Source: an uncultured Alphaproteobacteria bacterium | Lineage (GTDB): Bacteria > Pseudomonadota > Alphaproteobacteria > Thalassobaculales > Thalassobaculaceae | Length of the DNA stretch: 33,185 nucleotides | Direction of reading: 5' to 3' | Assembly: GCA_938028645.1 (NCBI GenBank) | Contig: CALIMD010000157.1 | Location: 1-33,185 of the forward strand | Shown here: positions 1,936-12,545 of the stretch, in pieces | Position numbering within the stretch: the first letter of the stretch is position 1 | How the letters are laid out: every line of letters begins with the position of its first letter | Made by a program: the position numbers and the translations under genes | Notes under the pieces: model-generated | Database searches by the model: none | Told to the model about the DNA's origin: nothing | What the model saw: the letters and a program-made list of their open reading frames with translations, nothing else

Positions 1936-2727
1936 TTACTTGCTTATTATAGCATCCTTAAGACTTGGGATACCGGCCACTCTGTGTCTCACAGAATAAT
2001 CTAATGATTCTTCGCCCAAAGGAGCTATCTCCCATATCCATGTCTGACTCTGCCAAGGAAATGATACGTCGTTTAAAGCCGAGAACTTTCTTATTATTTT
2101 TCCAGAGGAGTCGAAAATTTCTCTCTCTATGTCAGTGATCAGACAGACGGTACCTGAGAAACTCGAGAGATAATTCAGGTGGCACTCAATCATTGTCATT
2201 GACATCTTTTGAATATCATCCTGGTTGATTTGCAAATGTTCTTCTAGAAACACAGATGGTAATATTGGCAGTTGAGACAAAATATTCAATGAAACAATCA
2301 AATCTGTCTGATCGTCATCCAGAAAACGAGTTGGCGAGCGGATACTCAAATTTCCATTTACAATGTTGTCTAAGCTCTCGGTAACATCATGAACAATCAG
2401 TTTTAAAGATGGGTTTCTCCACGCCATCCATCTAATCGGCAATGAGTGGACCAAGTCCACGAGAACGACTTCCTCGAAATGGGATAATAATTTCTTCAGC
2501 GGCAAATCATAACCAAGACCCGCCCCAAAAACTACAACCCGCCTGTTACCCACGGATTTGTCGATTGCTTTTTCTATATTTCTTTTACTTTCCGACAAAT
2601 GGTTTAACCATTTGTTTTTACAACGGCCATAACGGCTAATTATAGAAATATTTTCTTTTAAAAAACCCAAACGACGCGCCGTCGGGGGACATGGGGTAAT
2701 AGAAAAAAATATAGCCTCTAATAACAT
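1936..2727 (-). CDS. hypothetical protein with Rossmann/SAM-methyltransferase-like segment
   Basis: Long ORF with VVVFGAGLGYDLPLKKL..EEVVLVDLVHSLP, resembling a SAM-binding motif I/II arrangement. Divergent from the riboswitch operon. Confidence 0.6.
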   Translation of the reverse strand: MLLEAIFFSITPCPPTARRLGFLKENISIISRYGRCKNKWLNHLSESKRNIEKAIDKSVGNRRVVVFGAGLGYDLPLKKLLSHFEEVVLVDLVHSLPIRWMAWRNPSLKLIVHDVTESLDNIVNGNLSIRSPTRFLDDDQTDLIVSLNILSQLPILPSVFLEEHLQINQDDIQKMSMTMIECHLNYLSSFSGTVCLITDIEREIFDSSGKIIRKFSALNDVSFPWQSQTWIWEIAPLGEESLDYSVRHRVAGIPSLKDAIISK

Positions 2728-2754
2728 TGTCTTCCAATCCAGTTTCCCTGCATG

Positions 2755-2790
2755 TTGACATTATCGCAAATACAAAGCACTTTAAACGTC
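2755..2790 (+). promoter_or_regulatory. candidate promoter for the riboswitch operon
   Basis: Perfect -35 hexamer TTGACA at 2755-2760, about 35 bp before the riboswitch 5' end. The -10 is not a good match (around 2778-2786, cactttaaa). Confidence 0.4.
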
Positions 2791-2883
2791 ACTGATGCTG
2801 GGGTGTTCTTTTCGTTTTTCGAAAAGTTCTGAGATCATACCCATGGAACCTGAACCGGTTAACCCCGGCGTAGGAAGTCGTCC
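2791..2883 (+). ncRNA. TPP (thiamin pyrophosphate) riboswitch / THI element
   Basis: CTGGGGTG - P3 hairpin CTTTTCG-TTTTT-CGAAAAG - TTCTGAGATCATACCC - ATGGAACCTGAACCGGTTAACCCCGGCGTAGGAAGTC. This matches the conserved GGGGTG...CTGAGA...ACCC...GAACCTGATCCGGTTAATACCGGCGTAGGGAAG core in order and spacing. Confidence 0.95.
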
Positions 2884-2902
2884 GTATCCAGCCTCAGACG
2901 AC
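2877..2902 (+). promoter_or_regulatory. candidate expression-platform hairpin, alternative to riboswitch P1
   Basis: GTCGTC (2877-2882), overlapping the P1 3' side, is perfectly complementary to GACGAC (2897-2902). Confidence 0.4.
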
Positions 2903-2968
2903 AAGTTGTAAACGCTGTATCTTTGTTGACGATTGATCCAGCAAAATTGAGATAGTTGGGGGAACCAT

Positions 2969-4099
2969 ATGATTAAACTAACGAAGTTATTAACAATTTT
3001 TACTATGATAGTCCTTTTCCCAATTTCGGCAGAAACGAAAGAAACATATATTCCAATTCTTGTTCCTATAACAGGATTTCTATCTCTGGAGGGAACCGCG
3101 CAACGCAATGGAGCGATTCAAGCGCTAGATGAGGCTTCCAGCAGTCTAAAAATAAAATATGAAGTCTCGGATACATCCACATCCCCAGAGATCGCCGTAA
3201 CCGCCCTCCAAAGAGCATTGAGTCGGGGAAAGCCGGTGGCAATCGCAGCTCCCATATTCGGAACGCAAATGCTTGCAATGCTTCCAATTGCAAAAAGAGC
3301 AGGGGTTCCGCTTATAACAGTATCAGGTACTGCAAAACTTACGGAACTTGACAACCCGTTTATCTTTCGGTTTTTCCCCGGCGATGCTGTAGTTAAAGTT
3401 GCACACGCTCGATATGTTACTGAAGTTTTGAGAGCAAAGCGTCCAGCTCTCTTATATCAGACTACGGCTTATGGTCAGAGCGGTTACTCCCATTTGTCAA
3501 AGGCTTTAAGAAAAGCTGGAGTGCCACTAGTTTTTGAAGAAGCACTCGCTCCTTCTGTCAAAGATATGCTACCCGCATTAACCAAACTTAGAGCCGCTAA
3601 ACCCGATGTAATCTTATTACACCTACATTCGACACCAACTGCACTTGTCATTCGCCAAGCGCGTAATAGTGGTATTGAATTGCCAATTGTAGCTGGCTCA
3701 GCAATGCATCAACCATCCACAGCAAAACTTTTGAAAAACCATCAGTTGAGAGGCGTCTGTGCTGAAACCGCAGCATCTCCAATCTCGGAAACCCATCCCG
3801 AATTGATCCAATTTACCACCGAGTATAAAAAACGTTTTCAAACGCTGCCCGACGCTTTCGCACTGGCCCAGTATGATGGAATGAATATGGTTATTACAGC
3901 TTTAAGAAGTGGCGCAAAAACAGCTATGGATATTCGAAATTGGTTAGCCACAAATACGTTTAATGGTCTTGCGATGAAATATAAATCAGATGGCAAGGGA
4001 AACATGGGACATGACGCAACTATCGTGTGTTACGATGGGAAGACTAAAACACCGAAAATTACCAAGAAATATTTAAATGTCGACGGTACATTTAATTGA
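2969..4099 (+). CDS. ABC transporter periplasmic substrate-binding protein, LivK/Peripla_BP_6 type
   Basis: Signal peptide MIKLTKLLTIFTMIVLFPISAET; type I PBP body (GVPLITVSGTAKLTELDNPFIFRFFPGD...YGQSGY...); RBS-like GGGGGA before ATG; followed by LivHMGF-type genes. Confidence 0.88.
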   Translation: MIKLTKLLTIFTMIVLFPISAETKETYIPILVPITGFLSLEGTAQRNGAIQALDEASSSLKIKYEVSDTSTSPEIAVTALQRALSRGKPVAIAAPIFGTQMLAMLPIAKRAGVPLITVSGTAKLTELDNPFIFRFFPGDAVVKVAHARYVTEVLRAKRPALLYQTTAYGQSGYSHLSKALRKAGVPLVFEEALAPSVKDMLPALTKLRAAKPDVILLHLHSTPTALVIRQARNSGIELPIVAGSAMHQPSTAKLLKNHQLRGVCAETAASPISETHPELIQFTTEYKKRFQTLPDAFALAQYDGMNMVITALRSGAKTAMDIRNWLATNTFNGLAMKYKSDGKGNMGHDATIVCYDGKTKTPKITKKYLNVDGTFN

Positions 4100-4114
4100 T
4101 GAACTAAAGAACGA

Positions 4115-5017
4115 ATGTTAGATATCAGCCTTCAAATCATCCTCAATGGAATTTCCCTCGGCTGTGCTTATGCTTTGATCACTCTAGGGTTTGTTTTAGT
4201 CATTAATGCAATAGGAGCTGTAAACTTCGCGCAGGGCGATTTCGTAATGGCGGGTGGCTTCCTAACAGTTGTATTAGCCGAATTTATGGTCGCTGATAAT
4301 TTTAATCCTATTAGAGCATCCGGCTTGATTATATTGCCACTCGTTCTGATAAGCATGGCATGTTTTGGCTTTTTGTTTTCGTTGATCGCCTATAAACCTC
4401 TTAAAAACCGTCCTCCTGTGACAGTCTTCATTAGCACAATCGCTATGGGTTTAATTATCCAACACAGCATAAATGCTGGCTTCGGTCCTGAACCTCAAAT
4501 TGGCCCAGCTTTAATCAGTTCAGGAACGATAACTATTGGGACACTGACGATCTCAAAACAGCAAATATCTATCATCCTTTCTGCAAGTTTTTTGATTCTA
4601 TGTGTCGGTTTTTTAATGAATAAAACCCAACTTGGACGAAAATTAAGAGCCGCATCCCAAGATTCAGAAATGGCAGAATCAATCGGCATTAATGGACCGC
4701 AATGTATTTCTATTACATTTAGCCTAGCAATCGCACTCGCTGGCGCTGCTGGCCTTTTGCTTTCCAATCAATTTTTTGTAACCACAAGTGACGGCGGACT
4801 ATATATGCTAAAAGCGTATATAGCCGTTACTCTAGGTGGTTGGGGAAGGCTTGATGGGGCAGTTATTGCAGCATTAGCCGTAGGGTTATTTGAAGTTATT
4901 ATGGCGACATTAGTCTCTTATGTTGTTGCTGAAGCTCTCCTTTTTGCTGCCCTTTTATTAGTTCTTTTATTTCGCCCGTCAGGTTTATTTGCGGAAGCAA
5001 TTCAAAGGAGAACCTGA
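4115..5017 (+). CDS. ABC transporter permease, LivH type
   Basis: LNGISLGCAYALITLGFVLVINAIGAVNFAQGDFVMAGGF; multiple TM segments; TLGGWGRLDGAVIAALAVGLFE. Confidence 0.92.
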   Translation: MLDISLQIILNGISLGCAYALITLGFVLVINAIGAVNFAQGDFVMAGGFLTVVLAEFMVADNFNPIRASGLIILPLVLISMACFGFLFSLIAYKPLKNRPPVTVFISTIAMGLIIQHSINAGFGPEPQIGPALISSGTITIGTLTISKQQISIILSASFLILCVGFLMNKTQLGRKLRAASQDSEMAESIGINGPQCISITFSLAIALAGAAGLLLSNQFFVTTSDGGLYMLKAYIAVTLGGWGRLDGAVIAALAVGLFEVIMATLVSYVVAEALLFAALLLVLLFRPSGLFAEAIQRRT

Positions 5018-6729
5018 TGTCTTCGCTATATTCGAGAGACTTTATTGTTACGTTAATAATTATGCTAATTCCGTTATGCTTAGCATTAAATACTGATTCG
5101 TATGGCCAGCGTATCATGACATTATCTGGAATATATGCGATTGCTGCCATGGGCTATCATCTCATTTTTGGTCGTCTGGGCGCTTTATCCCTGGCACAAG
5201 GATGTTTTTTTGGGTTAGGGGCTTATTCGGCCGGCTTAATAGGAGTTCATTTTGGTTTAAGTTTTTTAACTTGCCTATTATTTGCGGTCATATTTACAGC
5301 TCTGGTATCCTTAATCATAGCACTTCCTGTATTACGATTAGAGTCACATTATTTTGCCTTGGCAACCCTTGGAATTGCCCAGGTTGCTCTATTAATCGCT
5401 ATAAATTGGACAGAGGTTACAGGGGGAGCAAATGGAACATATGGCATCCCGCAATTAGATTTATTTGGCGTGGAGCTATCGTCCTCTAGCGATGTTCTTA
5501 TATTTGTTTGGGTTATTTTGGTCATCATCGTGAGTTTAACTTTTTGGATAATGCGAGCTCCATTCAATTATCAAGTAACCCTGTTAAAAGATACTCCAGA
5601 AGTTGCAGCCTCATCAGGCATAGACATCGGCAGATGGCGCTTAACTTTCTTTATAATGAGTGCCATTTTTGGGGCGATAGCGGGAGCACTTCAAGCCTAT
5701 ACGATTGGTGTGGTCTCCCCTGCTACTTTGGAATTTCAAGTAATGGTAAGTATCCTTGCTATGACTGTGATCGGAGGGAAAAATCATCCCGCGGGCGCTG
5801 TGATTGGGGCAATATTACTCACCCATCTTCCAGAATGGTTTCGCTTCTTAGAGACGCATTATTTAATTGCCTATGGGGCGGCTCTTCTTTGTACTATCAT
5901 TGTCGCCCCAAGTGGAATTTTTGGTCTTTTTGAAAAATTTATAATTAGGAATCCGGGCTATGATGTGAAAAGCCTACCATCCAAAGAAAATAAGGCTGTC
6001 TCTGACACAAACAGCACCTCATTAGAAATACAAGGCCTCTCAAAAACATACGGGGGGATTAAGGCTTTAAAAAATTTAAATATGACCTTAACGAGCTATC
6101 AAATTGTTGGCCTAGTCGGTCCGAATGGGTCAGGAAAATCAACACTAATAAATATTATTTCAGGTTTACAACGCCAAGACGAAGGAACTATTGAACTCGA
6201 TGGTTCTTTTATAGAAAACACTGCCTCTTACAAACGATCGAATAGAGGGATAGCGCGAACATATCAAACGTCTTTACGTTCCTCAGATCTTAACGTTTAT
6301 CAGGCTATTTTAGCTTGTTCATCAAACCAACATAATCTCAAACATCGACATAACCAAACACATGCGATTTTAAGAAATTCTCGATTAATCTCCAAGACTG
6401 AAAGTATGGTAGGTGACTTGTCCACCGCAGACGCCCGAGAACTGGATCTGTGTATGGCGTTAGCAACAGAACCAAAAATATTACTATTGGACGAACCCGC
6501 CGCCGGTTTATCATCCGCAGAACAACAGTTTTTGAGCACTAAAATCCGTCACCTAGCTCAATCGGGAATATCAATCCTGATTGTGGATCATTCTATGGAT
6601 TTTTTACTACCCGTAGTTGATCGTTTAATATGCCTTGATCAAGGTTCAGTGGTAGCAGAAGGAGTACCGGCAAAAGTTTTAGCCGATCCTAAAGCCTTAA
6701 AATTATATTTTGGAAACGCCCGTTCATGA
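5017..6729 (+). CDS. fused ABC transporter permease/ATP-binding protein, LivM-LivG type
   Basis: N-terminal LivM-like TM domain (GRLGALSLAQGCFFGLGAYSAG; VIGGKNHPAGAVIGAILL) continuous with a C-terminal ABC domain (GPNGSGKST Walker A; ILLLDEPAAGLS Walker B; VDHSM H-loop). Confidence 0.92.
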   Translation: MSSLYSRDFIVTLIIMLIPLCLALNTDSYGQRIMTLSGIYAIAAMGYHLIFGRLGALSLAQGCFFGLGAYSAGLIGVHFGLSFLTCLLFAVIFTALVSLIIALPVLRLESHYFALATLGIAQVALLIAINWTEVTGGANGTYGIPQLDLFGVELSSSSDVLIFVWVILVIIVSLTFWIMRAPFNYQVTLLKDTPEVAASSGIDIGRWRLTFFIMSAIFGAIAGALQAYTIGVVSPATLEFQVMVSILAMTVIGGKNHPAGAVIGAILLTHLPEWFRFLETHYLIAYGAALLCTIIVAPSGIFGLFEKFIIRNPGYDVKSLPSKENKAVSDTNSTSLEIQGLSKTYGGIKALKNLNMTLTSYQIVGLVGPNGSGKSTLINIISGLQRQDEGTIELDGSFIENTASYKRSNRGIARTYQTSLRSSDLNVYQAILACSSNQHNLKHRHNQTHAILRNSRLISKTESMVGDLSTADARELDLCMALATEPKILLLDEPAAGLSSAEQQFLSTKIRHLAQSGISILIVDHSMDFLLPVVDRLICLDQGSVVAEGVPAKVLADPKALKLYFGNARS

Positions 6730-7454
6730 ATAACGCTACCCTAATCATAAGCAATCTCAATGCGAGTCATAAACGTGAACAAACCATCCGGGACATCGAA
6801 ATTACGCTAAAAGAGCATCAGTCTATGGTAATCTTTGGAGCCACTGGGGCAGGAAAAACGAGCCTATTGAGAGCTATAATGGGTTTAGATAAAATCTCTT
6901 CTGGAACCATTCAATTGAATGGACAGAACTTTCACACTATGAGCACACGACAGCGAGCGCATTTGGGAATTGGTTATTGTCCAGAGGGGCGACGCTTATT
7001 TCCAGGATTAACCGTTTGGGAAACCTTAGCAGTTACTTTCAATGGAAAAAAAGCAGAAAGAGATCGGCGCATTGATGAAATCTTTCACCTTCTGCCCGCC
7101 CTAAAAATTAAAAAAGGCGACAGGGCATGGTCTTTATCCGGAGGACAACAGCAGATGCTCGCAATTGCTAGAGCTACTATCAACAAGCCTAAACTAATCT
7201 TACTAGACGAACCAACACTAGGTTTATCACCTATAATGATAGATGAAATCATGGAAATTATAGGTTCCATAAAAGATAATGGCGCCACCATCCTCATGGC
7301 TGAACAGAAAATAGAGCCCAGTCTTTCAATAGGAGATTTAGTTGTCGTTTTATCCAGAGGAGAGATAATATACAAAGGACTGGGTGATGATATTGACCCC
7401 GATCAAATCGCTAGTATGGTAATGACCGGCAGCTTTGAACCTATACATAACTGA
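6726..7454 (+). CDS. ABC transporter ATP-binding protein, LivF type
   Basis: GATGAGKTSLLRAIMG Walker A; LGIGYCPEGRRLFPGLTVWE; WSLSGGQQQMLAIARA; LILLDEPTLGLSP. 4-bp ATGA overlap with the upstream gene. Confidence 0.94.
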   Translation: MNNATLIISNLNASHKREQTIRDIEITLKEHQSMVIFGATGAGKTSLLRAIMGLDKISSGTIQLNGQNFHTMSTRQRAHLGIGYCPEGRRLFPGLTVWETLAVTFNGKKAERDRRIDEIFHLLPALKIKKGDRAWSLSGGQQQMLAIARATINKPKLILLDEPTLGLSPIMIDEIMEIIGSIKDNGATILMAEQKIEPSLSIGDLVVVLSRGEIIYKGLGDDIDPDQIASMVMTGSFEPIHN

Positions 7455-7509
7455 AGAATTCGCATTTACTTTTCACACTCTCCAATAAAACTTAAACTGA
7501 GGATCTAGA

Positions 7510-8190
7510 ATGAACGGCGCCCTAACCCCTGACTTTAATAAAAGTCCCGCCCAATTGGCGGCAAATATATTATTAGATATAGAGGCAATTCATATTAGGC
7601 CCGATGATCCATTCACCTTCACGTCAGGTCGGTTGTCCCCAGTATATGTCGACTGTAGAAGAATCATATCTTTTCCTCGAGCCCGGTCAGAGTTAATGAA
7701 AATGAGTGTTAATCTTTTAAATCATACAGCTGGAGTTGAAGCCTTCGATGCAGTAGCAGGTGGGGAAACAGCCGGAATACCCTTTGCAGCTTGGATCGCT
7801 GAACTTTTAGGTCTACCCATGTTGTATATTCGAAAACAGGCAAAAGGTTTTGGCAGAAATGCTCGGATAGAGGGAACCTTTAAAGAGGACGCAAATATTT
7901 TACTTGTTGAGGATCTTGCAACGGATGGCGGGAGTAAACTGAGTTTCATAAATGCTATCCGCGAAGCAGGTGGAAAAGTGGACCATTGTTTTGTTATTTT
8001 TCATTATGGGAGTTTTCCAGAGAGTACTGTAAATTTGAAATCGGCCGGTGTCTCACTTCATGGTCTTTGCACCTGGTGGGATGTTCTCGAGGTTGCAGCA
8101 ACCCGTAATTATACGGCAGACCAAATAAACACGGTCAAAGATTTTTTAAATGACCCAGATGGCTGGGCAGAACGGAATAAATTAAGTTAG
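7510..8190 (+). CDS. pyrE: orotate phosphoribosyltransferase-like protein (PyrE family)
   Basis: FTSGRLSPVYVDCRRIISFPRARSELM, VAGGETAGIPFAA and PRPP-loop ILLVEDLATDGGSK; closely resembles alphaproteobacterial PyrE. Confidence 0.88.
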   Translation: MNGALTPDFNKSPAQLAANILLDIEAIHIRPDDPFTFTSGRLSPVYVDCRRIISFPRARSELMKMSVNLLNHTAGVEAFDAVAGGETAGIPFAAWIAELLGLPMLYIRKQAKGFGRNARIEGTFKEDANILLVEDLATDGGSKLSFINAIREAGGKVDHCFVIFHYGSFPESTVNLKSAGVSLHGLCTWWDVLEVAATRNYTADQINTVKDFLNDPDGWAERNKLS

Positions 8191-8237
8191 ATTCAAATAA
8201 CGCTATCGTTTTAAGATGATAAAGAGGAAATTATAAA

Positions 8238-8861
8238 ATGCTGATAATTCATGGACGTAGAAATTCGTCTAATGTTCAGAAGGTTGTGTGGGCGCTTAAC
8301 GAGATGGAGGTATCCTATGAACGTTTAGACGTAGGAGGCGAATTCGGTATTGTTAACGAGCCCCCATATCTTGCAATGAACCCTAACGCGAGAGTCCCCA
8401 CCATGGAAGAAAATGGTTTTATACTCTGGGAGTCTAACGCTATCGTTCGTTACCTAACCGCTAAGCACGACACCGGAGGCCTTTATCCTTCTGACCCAAA
8501 AGTCCGAGCCTCGGCCGATCGTTGGATGGACTGGCAACATACCAGTGTAGGGCAATATATTACTCCAATCTTCTGGGGTCTGGTTAGAACCCCAGAGAGT
8601 GAGCGGGATTTAGATCTTATAGAGTCAAGCCGCCTTGGTATGATCGCAGCCATGCAGATTTTAAATAACAACTTATCCGATAAAAACTTTGTCGCCGGCG
8701 ATGCATTTACCATGGGCGATATCCCATTAGCTATTCACGTTTATCGCTGGTTCCGGCTAATCCAAGATCGGCCTACAATGGAACATTTAGAAAATTGGTT
8801 TGATCGGCTTTCTAAACGATCCGCATTTAAAACCCATGTATTGGATATCCCTTTCACCTAA
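8238..8861 (+). CDS. glutathione S-transferase family protein
   Basis: Thioredoxin-like N-terminus GRRNSSNVQKVVWALNEMEVSYE; NPNARVPTMEENGFILWESNAIVRYL; alpha-helical C-terminus with FVAGDAFTMGDIPLAI. Confidence 0.92.
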   Translation: MLIIHGRRNSSNVQKVVWALNEMEVSYERLDVGGEFGIVNEPPYLAMNPNARVPTMEENGFILWESNAIVRYLTAKHDTGGLYPSDPKVRASADRWMDWQHTSVGQYITPIFWGLVRTPESERDLDLIESSRLGMIAAMQILNNNLSDKNFVAGDAFTMGDIPLAIHVYRWFRLIQDRPTMEHLENWFDRLSKRSAFKTHVLDIPFT

Positions 8862-8931: not shown

Positions 8932-10611
8932 ATGAGGGTTGGACTGTGGCTATTGGGGCTCTTAGTTTCACTGGTAACACTAAATTCGACTGAGGCATGG
9001 ACCAAGCAACGTCTTGTAATTGGAGTGACGCAGTTTCCTTCGACACTCAATCCTCTAATAGATTCAATGTTGATAAAATCGTACGTCTTAGCCATGGCAC
9101 GGCGTCAGATTTCAATAATTGATCACAACTGGGAGCCCGTTTGCCAGCTTTGTACTGAATTGGCGACTTTTGAAAATGGTCGCGCCAAAGTATTCTCCAT
9201 AAAAGATGAATACGGAAGGGCTACTGGAGAACGGGGTGTTAGAACCCGGTTCACTCTCAAAGATGAACTTTTTTGGGGGGATGGAACGCCGGTTACGACT
9301 GAAGATATCTTTTTCACGTGGCAAGTTGGCAAGCACAGAGAGACGGGTGTAACCAACCATCAATCTTTCACAGATATTATCGATATTGAAGTCCACGATG
9401 CTAAATCATTCACTATTATAAACAAGAAATTAGACTACCGGTATTATGCATTAAGTGGGTTTAATATTCTTCCCGCACATCTCGAGAGAGACGCCTTTAA
9501 AAAGCCACGCGACTATAGGAAAAAGACGCTATACCAAACAAACCCCACGCATCCGGGGCTATATAATGGCCCGTATCGTATCACTAAGATCGTCTCCGGA
9601 TCGTATATTGTTTTGGAACGGAATGAGTATTGGAAGGGAAAGCCTCCTGGTTTCAAACAAATACAAGTTAAAACAATAGAAAAAACCTCTGCATTAGAAG
9701 CTAATCTTTTATCTGGGGCAATCGACTATATCGCGGGAGAGGCAGGGCTTTCATTAGATCAAGCGGTATCATTTGAGAAGCGACATTCCAAAAGATATAA
9801 CGTTTCGTATAAACCAGGATTGATCTACGAACACCTAGATTTAATGTTGGACAATCCAATACTTTCTGACTTAAGAGTTCGAAAAGCATTAATCCATTCC
9901 ATCGATCGGACAGCTATCAGCAATAGGTTGTTTAGCGGCAAACAGCCTGTAGCGCATAATAAAATTCATCCATTAGATTGGATACACACAAATACCGTTA
10001 AGAAATATTCCTATGACCCCCAGAAAGCACGAGAACTTTTGAATGATGCTGGATGGAATACTATTAATGCGGGAATTAGATACAACTCATCCGGAAAGAA
10101 ACTTCAGCTAGAACTGATGTCAACTGCTGGAAATAGATCAAGAGAATTGGTAGAGCAGGTGCTACAAAGTTACTGGAAAGCCGTTGGTATTGAGATAAAA
10201 ATACGAAACCAACCTGCTCGCGTCCTATTTGGAGAGACTATTAGTAAAAGAAAATTTACCGGACTGGCAATGTTTGCTTGGTTATCCGCACCCGAATCAT
10301 TGCCGCGAACGACGCTTCATTCTCAATCAGTACCAACAAAAGAAAACAATTGGTCCGGACAGAATTATACAGGTTTTAAGAATCAATTAATGGACCAGTT
10401 GATTGACTCCATAGAGATAGAACTAGAAAAAGATAAACGAAAAAAGCTCTGGGAACAGTTACAAAGATTATATGCAGAGCAACTTCCTGCTATACCGTTG
10501 TATTTTAGGGCAAATAGCTTCATTGTTCCTAAATGGCTTAAGGGAATCAGACCAACTGGTCACATGTTTACATCAACTAACTGGGTAGAGGATTGGCACT
10601 TTATTAAGTAA
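8932..10611 (+). CDS. peptide/nickel-type ABC transporter substrate-binding protein (SBP_bac_5 family)
   Basis: Signal peptide; FTLKDELFWGDGTPVTTEDIFFTW; NGPYRITKIVSGSYIVLERNEYWKGKPPGF; LRVRKALIHSIDR. Confidence 0.92.
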   Translation: MRVGLWLLGLLVSLVTLNSTEAWTKQRLVIGVTQFPSTLNPLIDSMLIKSYVLAMARRQISIIDHNWEPVCQLCTELATFENGRAKVFSIKDEYGRATGERGVRTRFTLKDELFWGDGTPVTTEDIFFTWQVGKHRETGVTNHQSFTDIIDIEVHDAKSFTIINKKLDYRYYALSGFNILPAHLERDAFKKPRDYRKKTLYQTNPTHPGLYNGPYRITKIVSGSYIVLERNEYWKGKPPGFKQIQVKTIEKTSALEANLLSGAIDYIAGEAGLSLDQAVSFEKRHSKRYNVSYKPGLIYEHLDLMLDNPILSDLRVRKALIHSIDRTAISNRLFSGKQPVAHNKIHPLDWIHTNTVKKYSYDPQKARELLNDAGWNTINAGIRYNSSGKKLQLELMSTAGNRSRELVEQVLQSYWKAVGIEIKIRNQPARVLFGETISKRKFTGLAMFAWLSAPESLPRTTLHSQSVPTKENNWSGQNYTGFKNQLMDQLIDSIEIELEKDKRKKLWEQLQRLYAEQLPAIPLYFRANSFIVPKWLKGIRPTGHMFTSTNWVEDWHFIK

Positions 10612-10621
10612 TATCCAATCA

Positions 10622-10643
10622 TCTAAAGTAGTAACTCTTTAGA
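10622..10643 (+). other. intercistronic hairpin between SBP and permease genes
   Basis: TCTAAAG (10622-10628) / CTTTAGA (10637-10643) perfect 7-bp inverted repeat with an 8-nt loop in a 53-bp gap. Confidence 0.45.
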
Positions 10644-10664
10644 AATAGATTATAAATTTACTAC

Positions 10665-11627
10665 ATGATTAGATTTATTATCAGCCGAACATTTCAGTCA
10701 CTAATGGTACTCCTGATAATGAGTTTTATTATCTATTTGCTGCTGGGGCTTATGCCCGGCGACCCAATAGATTTAATGGTCGGATCTAACCCCGAGATCT
10801 CAAGCGATGACATACAAAGATTAAAAGAACTTTACAATGTAGATAAGCCAATACTTGAAAGATATTTAATTTGGATAACTAATGCTGTGCAGGGAGATTT
10901 TGGGTATTCCAGACTATTTTCTCAACCCATTATGGATATTCTCGCTCCCAGATTATTCAATTCAATAGTATTAATGAGCGTTTCGCTAGTTTTAGCTTTA
11001 TTAGTTGCAATACCCGCTGGTATTTACGCGGCAACCCATCCAAATTCTCTTCTAGAAAAAGCCATAAACTTTCTCTGCTTTGCTGGAATTTCAATTCCCC
11101 CATTTTGGTTGGCGCTTTTGTTTATTTTATTGTTTTCGGTATTCACTGGAGTTTTACCAGCCAGTGGAATGGAAACAATTGGTGATGGTAGCGTAATCGA
11201 CCGAGTTCACCATATGATATTACCGGTGGCAACTTTGTCCATGGCAACGATAGCGGGATACACACGGCACGTGAGTGCCTCTATGACCGAGGTTCTCCAA
11301 AACGACTTTATAAGAACTGCGAGAGCAAAGGGATTATTAGAAAAATCTGTCTTGTGGCGGCATGCCCTCAAGAATGCATTAATTCCCGTGGTGACAATCA
11401 TAGCGTTAGACTTTGGTTCTTTATTCTCTGGGGCACTAATAACAGAAACAATGTTTTCATGGCTTGGAATGGGAAAGACTATTTACGATGCCATAATTGG
11501 TAGCGACTATAATTTAGCGTTAATTGGCCTTCTGCTGGCCACAGTACTGACCTTAACAGCAAACATAATGGCTGATATTGCCTACGCCACTTTGGACCCG
11601 CGTATAAACTATCAAAAGAAAAACTAG
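10665..11627 (+). CDS. peptide-type ABC transporter permease, DppB family
   Basis: MIRFIISRTFQSLMVLLIMSFIIYLLLGLMPGDP; EAA loop TARAKGLLEKSVLWRHALKNALIPVV. Confidence 0.94.
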   Translation: MIRFIISRTFQSLMVLLIMSFIIYLLLGLMPGDPIDLMVGSNPEISSDDIQRLKELYNVDKPILERYLIWITNAVQGDFGYSRLFSQPIMDILAPRLFNSIVLMSVSLVLALLVAIPAGIYAATHPNSLLEKAINFLCFAGISIPPFWLALLFILLFSVFTGVLPASGMETIGDGSVIDRVHHMILPVATLSMATIAGYTRHVSASMTEVLQNDFIRTARAKGLLEKSVLWRHALKNALIPVVTIIALDFGSLFSGALITETMFSWLGMGKTIYDAIIGSDYNLALIGLLLATVLTLTANIMADIAYATLDPRINYQKKN

Positions 11628-12545
11628 ATGAGCACGCGAATTCTCAAAACACAAAAAAGTGCCTTTTTCTCTAGGTTTTTAAATACGTCCCCCGCTGTTA
11701 TTAGTCTTTCCTTTCTATCATTAATGATTTTAATAATTCTTTTGGCACCTATTTATGAATTTTTAAGAGCGGCAGACCCAACCCGAGTTGATTTATTTAA
11801 CCGGTTTTTGGGACCGAGTGGAACCTATATTCTTGGAACCGACGAACTGGGTAGAGATCTAATGTTACGCCTATTAAACGGCGGCAAAGTCTCTCTTTCA
11901 ATCGGCTTAATAACTTCAATTATCGTTGGCTCAATAGGAACTGTGCTAGGGCTCACATCAGGTTATTTCGGAGGGAAAATAGATTCTATTATAATGCGAT
12001 TTGCCGATACTATAATTTCACTTCCTCTTCTTCCTCTATTGATTGTTTTAACGGCAATAGATTTAAGTAAACTTGGCATTCCACAAACGTATATTGACAT
12101 GCCTTTCTTCAGCACTTGCAAAATAATAATAATAATTTCCATCGTTGGATGGCCCACAATAGCCCGTTTAGTGAGGGCTTCTACTTTAACGGTTAGAGAG
12201 GAAGATTTCATTAAGGTTGCATTAGCTCAAGGATATGGTCCAATGCGCATCATTTTTAGACATATACTGCCAAATGTTACTTCGCCAATCATTGTAGCAA
12301 CTACATTGGCTATTGGTAATATCATCCTTTTTGAAAGCGTATTGAGTTTTCTTGGCCTTGGAATTCAACCTCCTGTAGCCAGCTGGGGCAATATGCTTAC
12401 GGGTGCCCAGGAATTATTATACGAAGATCCAAAGCTTGCTATTTGGCCTGGCACCTTAATATTCTTAACGGTTATAGCATTCAACTTTCTTGGAGATTCC
12501 TTGCAAAGGGCTTTTAGAACTAGATCGATTCAGATCATTGAGTAA
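11628..12545 (+). CDS. peptide-type ABC transporter permease, DppC family
   Basis: GTDELGRDLMLRLLNGGKVSLSIGL; KVALAQGYGPMRIIFRHILPNV; FLGLGIQPPVASWGNML. Confidence 0.94.
   Translation: MSTRILKTQKSAFFSRFLNTSPAVISLSFLSLMILIILLAPIYEFLRAADPTRVDLFNRFLGPSGTYILGTDELGRDLMLRLLNGGKVSLSIGLITSIIVGSIGTVLGLTSGYFGGKIDSIIMRFADTIISLPLLPLLIVLTAIDLSKLGIPQTYIDMPFFSTCKIIIIISIVGWPTIARLVRASTLTVREEDFIKVALAQGYGPMRIIFRHILPNVTSPIIVATTLAIGNIILFESVLSFLGLGIQPPVASWGNMLTGAQELLYEDPKLAIWPGTLIFLTVIAFNFLGDSLQRAFRTRSIQIIE

Follow-up and report, generated by a model that had tools for sequence, protein, structure and literature searches.

A housekeeping pyrE gene beside a TPP-riboswitch-controlled Liv-type transport cassette in Thalassobaculaceae

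The gene at positions 7510-8190 on the forward strand of the 33,185-nucleotide stretch of DNA analysed here (the window) is very probably a housekeeping pyrE that resides in an older gene block, while a TPP-controlled vitamin-B1 cassette occupies the adjacent upstream slot; the link between pyrE and the riboswitch is therefore one of position. The encoded enzyme would convert orotate and PRPP into OMP in the de novo synthesis of UMP. The older block would run enoyl-CoA hydratase, conserved protein / pyrE, (GST), oppABC, rbsK and manC, with the TPP-riboswitch-controlled B1 supply cassette seated in the slot that separates pyrE from the conserved protein gene. Most family genomes have a Liv-type ABC importer there, probably for thiamine or its thiazole part, and one genus that groups with that of the window has thiO-thiS-thiG-thiE with a TPP riboswitch of its own. 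Where the gap is as short as in the window, some read-through from the cassette into pyrE would be likely, and pyrE most probably retains its own expression. Thus, the B1-controlled uptake system would be the neighbour of pyrE by virtue of filling this space, which in close relatives is taken by genes for the synthesis of part of vitamin B1.

Identity and copy number of PyrE

The 226-aa translation of the open reading frame contains ILLVEDLATDGGSK and passes NF001729, the NCBIfam equivalog model for orotate phosphoribosyltransferase (322 bits, E 1.6e-96, against a cut-off of 245), which confirms its earlier identification as a PyrE-like phosphoribosyltransferase. It falls slightly under the cut-off of TIGR00336 (104.2 vs 106.8). 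Among solved structures it is closest to PDB entry 4OHC, an orotate phosphoribosyltransferase (E 4e-73), to which the acidic pair of the PRPP loop, E134-D135, and the flexible loop RKQAKGFGRNA can be aligned. The active-site stretches agree with those of 4OHC and are kept in 18 PyrEs of the family, among which the EDLATD portion of the PRPP loop is invariant. PyrF is also encoded in the same genome. Judged by its equivalog score and its loops, the window PyrE is a housekeeping orotate phosphoribosyltransferase, with its activity predicted from the sequence. Compared with the alphaproteobacterial PyrE represented by NF001729 and 4OHC, it has the same length, PRPP loop, RKxxKGFG stretch of the flexible loop, FTSGxxSPVYxDCR stretch and single copy per genome, and differs only in its neighbourhood, as it lies 3' of a TPP-controlled transport cassette.

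The preliminary description of this DNA had proposed a paralog with a salvage role, acting on an imported pyrimidine (e.g. HMP) or another base, for which the sole argument is the position of the gene after a TPP-controlled importer. Several lines of evidence oppose this proposal. A search of the genome for PyrE returned a single match, the window protein itself, and no second full-length PyrE was found in the 36 family genomes searched; the exceptions to one full-length copy per genome are G013, whose gene is split in the assembly, and two genomes of another genus with distant, weak matches only. Because the assembly is about 74% complete, a second pyrE could be absent from it, and no relative carries a second full-length copy. 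The loop EDLATDGGS, which had been taken as a departure from a housekeeping EDLTTAGGS, proved to be what unlinked alphaproteobacterial PyrEs usually have, and it is also found in transporter-linked ones, while several transporter-linked PyrEs outside the family carry EDLTTDGGS. The choice between EDLATDGGS and EDLTTDGGS is thus independent of transporter linkage, and the loop was rejected as a signature of it. The linked copies are not set apart in the phylogeny either: in a quick PyrE tree, which has several long branches and SH-aLRT values as its only support, unlinked copies fall among linked ones, and a single clade of transporter-linked PyrEs was rejected (AU p = 9.25e-73). Similarly, two reduced genomes of 1.48 and 1.52 Mb (G023 and G024) retain pyrE and have no match to the substrate-binding protein of the transporter. 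Moreover, it is kinases (ThiD) that activate HMP, and the reaction is no phosphoribosyl transfer. On copy number, equivalog match, tree and motif, a specialised paralog or salvage PyrE was rejected, and we regard it as extremely improbable.

A separate observation concerns the genus of G001 and G002, in which ThiG is present and PyrE is only distantly related (~30% identity); its native pyrE may therefore have been replaced.

The riboswitch, the cassette and their linkage to pyrE

The TPP riboswitch aptamer lies at 2789-2894 on the forward strand (RF00059, 57.6 bits against a gathering threshold of 54.3, E 5.9e-9) and no other was found in this genome assembly. Between it and pyrE, a four-gene Liv-type ABC cassette extends from 2969 to 7454 on the same strand. 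The cassette encodes a Liv/HAAT-type periplasmic substrate-binding protein (2969-4099, PF13458), whose relatives among PDB structures are of the HAAT type, followed by a LivH-type permease (4115-5017, PF02653), a fused LivM-LivG permease-ATPase (5017-6729, PF02653 and PF00005) and a LivF-type ATPase (6726-7454, PF00005). A forward-strand spacer of 55 bp (7455-7509), compatible with read-through, separates livF from pyrE, and the placement of pyrE after a riboswitch-controlled transporter, as originally described, is borne out. Since no forward-strand terminator was called between the aptamer and the gene start, nor in the spacer, the riboswitch likely acts translationally. A promoter scan of 2700-8300 returned 13 sites against 13.9 expected, and the leader folds no better than its shuffles (z 0.34).

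This arrangement extends well beyond the window. The substrate-binding protein is conserved behind TPP riboswitches in the family and in other alphaproteobacteria, and the cassette lies directly upstream of pyrE in about 21 of the 23 family genomes that allowed both to be located; pyrE is unlinked to it in G009 and G014, and contig ends interrupt the locus of G015. In most mapped loci a TPP element lies ahead of the substrate-binding protein gene, those of the family without one being either cut by contig ends or under the Rfam threshold. Outside the family, about a dozen loci with more distant PyrEs show the same order, with the cassette ahead of pyrE, and Azospirillum-type genomes have the TPP cassette with pyrE not nearby. 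The family-wide mapping led us to reject the idea that the linkage is an accident of one genome. As a counterpart to its paralog, the preliminary description had allowed for the genome's only PyrE happening to be co-transcribed. This second reading is supported as to the sole copy, in a genome that is about 74% complete, and is refined in two ways: the linkage is conserved in the family and beyond, and pyrE appears to be the older occupant of the site. Our search of the open-access literature turned up no account of this linkage of pyrE, and none of a TPP cassette of the Liv type.

Conserved adjacency raises the question of TPP control over pyrE itself, in which a single riboswitch-livF-pyrE transcript would lower UMP synthesis in response to abundant thiamine diphosphate. 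Such TPP-dependent expression is possible because livF and pyrE, on the same strand, are only 34-85 bp apart in the window and in Nisaea-type and Thalassobaculum-type genomes, and are joined in frame in one locus, L057; the spacer free of called terminators and the presence of TPP control ahead of pyrE also where the cassette is thiOSGE point the same way. However, the spacing varies considerably. The livF-pyrE gap reaches ~0.9 kb in L059, where (as in L101) it contains an added gene, and is similar in L081; it is ~2.8 kb in BAL199 (L069/L108), where L108 contains an opposite-strand ORF, with a similar gap in T. fulvum (L070). In most linked genomes outside the family, an opposite-strand SH3-like ORF stands between the cassette and pyrE. 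In addition, linkage is absent in G009 and G014, the reduced genomes preserve pyrE in the absence of the cassette, and we see no biochemical reason for TPP to repress an essential step of UMP synthesis. As several lineages have other ORFs in between, strict conservation of an operon was rejected; cassette-pyrE co-regulation is not conserved across lineages, and membership of pyrE in the TPP regulon seems unlikely to us. In the window itself, pyrE may be transcribed by read-through from the cassette.

The in-frame join occupies positions 5218-6591 of L057 (genome G034; also L098), where livF and pyrE form one open frame and the region between the short repeats ATGACCGGC and ATGAACGGC is absent. 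An internal ATG in this fusion gives the start MTGALTPD, as in other PyrEs. The sequence comes from a single cell (SAG AG-447-C21), and the join may be an amplification artefact.

A probable older block and the exchange of its upstream slot

The preferred reading, a resident housekeeping pyrE beside an exchangeable cassette, draws on the flanking genes. Directly 3' of pyrE, in the window and in nearly all mapped family genomes, is a glutathione S-transferase-like gene (8238-8861, forward strand, PF02798), followed in the window by an oppA-like binding protein gene and two permease genes (8932-12545, forward strand; NCBIfam assignment for 8932-10611). Across the slot from pyrE, both on the reverse strand, lie a gene for a conserved 263-aa protein that matches no Pfam family (1936-2727) and, as the outer flank, a gene of the enoyl-CoA hydratase/isomerase family (1109-1921, PF00378). 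The order pyrE-oppABC also occurs in genomes of other families that have no Liv cassette at the site (L189, L196, L199 and L202), with not all of the block neighbours present in each. The conserved protein gene adjoins pyrE without the Liv cassette in L199 and L202 and flanks the pyrE slot in several families, and the enoyl-CoA hydratase gene also flanks pyrE in L189, L196, L199 and L200. It therefore appears that pyrE and its neighbours are the older residents and that the TPP-controlled cassette is the exchangeable part. Alternatively, the cassette may have been lost in the families that are now without it.

The content of the slot differs in one genus, g3 (L077-L080). There, a TPP riboswitch is followed by thiO-thiS-thiG-thiE, read in L079, and then by pyrE, in the same slot and between the same flanks as the Liv cassette. 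The ThiG of g3 was identified by its Pfam model, as NCBIfam gave no ThiG call, and its ThiO is just below the NCBIfam cut-off. A TPP-regulated thiOSGE thiazole operon thus occupies the slot held in the window by the Liv cassette, but that operon is biosynthetic whereas the window cassette is for transport, and the two riboswitch sequences differ. In the PyrE tree, g3 falls within the linked genomes, beside the genus of the window (SH-aLRT 94), which makes replacement of the transporter by thiOSGE the probable direction of the swap. The riboswitch of g3 is unlike those preceding Liv cassettes, which suggests that it arrived together with its thi genes.

The two kinds of cassette also exclude each other at the genome level. 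Among 36 family genomes, 24 have the Liv cassette and 6 have ThiG, with an overlap of 0; the probability of this by chance is 5e-4, a figure that ignores relatedness, and the pattern could reflect no more than two evolutionary events. ThiE is nearly universal among the family genomes, and ThiC was found in only four, all of the Nisaea-type genus. TIGR01378, the model for thiamine pyrophosphokinase, has no matches in the family, a result of little weight since the E. coli and Caulobacter controls escape the model as well. In a Thalassobaculum-type genome (G029), a hydroxyethylthiazole kinase gene (ThiM, NF006830; L183, 2106-2948) is found near a second thiE.

The probable cargo of the transporter

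Because ThiG and the Liv cassette never occur together, the cassette probably supplies thiamine or its thiazole part. This assignment of substrate comes from context, namely TPP control, the anti-occurrence with ThiG and the swap of the slot with thiOSGE. A broader reading is that the slot is an exchangeable TPP-controlled module for vitamin-B1 supply, in which thiOSGE has, in one genus, taken the place of an undescribed Liv/HAAT-type ABC importer of thiamine or its thiazole part; we advance it tentatively, as somewhat short of an even chance.

Transporters of thiamin or its precursors under TPP riboswitch control are a known class (PMC3766115), which the window resembles in having a transport cassette directly behind RF00059. 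The table of marine transporters in PMC10881298 lists ThiBPQ, ThiT, ThiXYZ, ThiV, CytX, YkoF, ThiPerm and Omr1 and no Liv-type system, in contrast to the Liv/HAAT-type ABC cassette of the window (Peripla_BP_6, BPD_transp_2).

Homologous Liv-type substrate-binding proteins for which no TPP element was found were also observed, mostly in betaproteobacteria (L147, L151, L155, L159, L165, L167, L168 and L172). Their genes, read by eye, adjoin those for alcohol dehydrogenase-like, aldehyde dehydrogenase-like, tripartite-type binding protein-like or ferritin-like products, which suggests that these homologues serve another substrate or use.

For PyrE itself, these results have little consequence, since it is an ordinary essential enzyme. 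What is of interest is the transporter, together with the conservation of the neighbourhood and the exchange, at one and the same site, of a transporter for thiazole synthesis. Through the neighbourhood, the substrate of a widespread Liv-type transporter can be approached indirectly, because the holders of the transporter are without thiG and one genus has thiazole genes in the same TPP-controlled slot. Thiazole auxotrophs are described as rare in the data set of PMC10881298, whereas ThiG is absent from all 24 of the 24 family genomes that have the Liv cassette. If the proposed role of the cassette is correct, it would represent an additional route of vitamin-B1 acquisition for thiazole-deficient marine bacteria.
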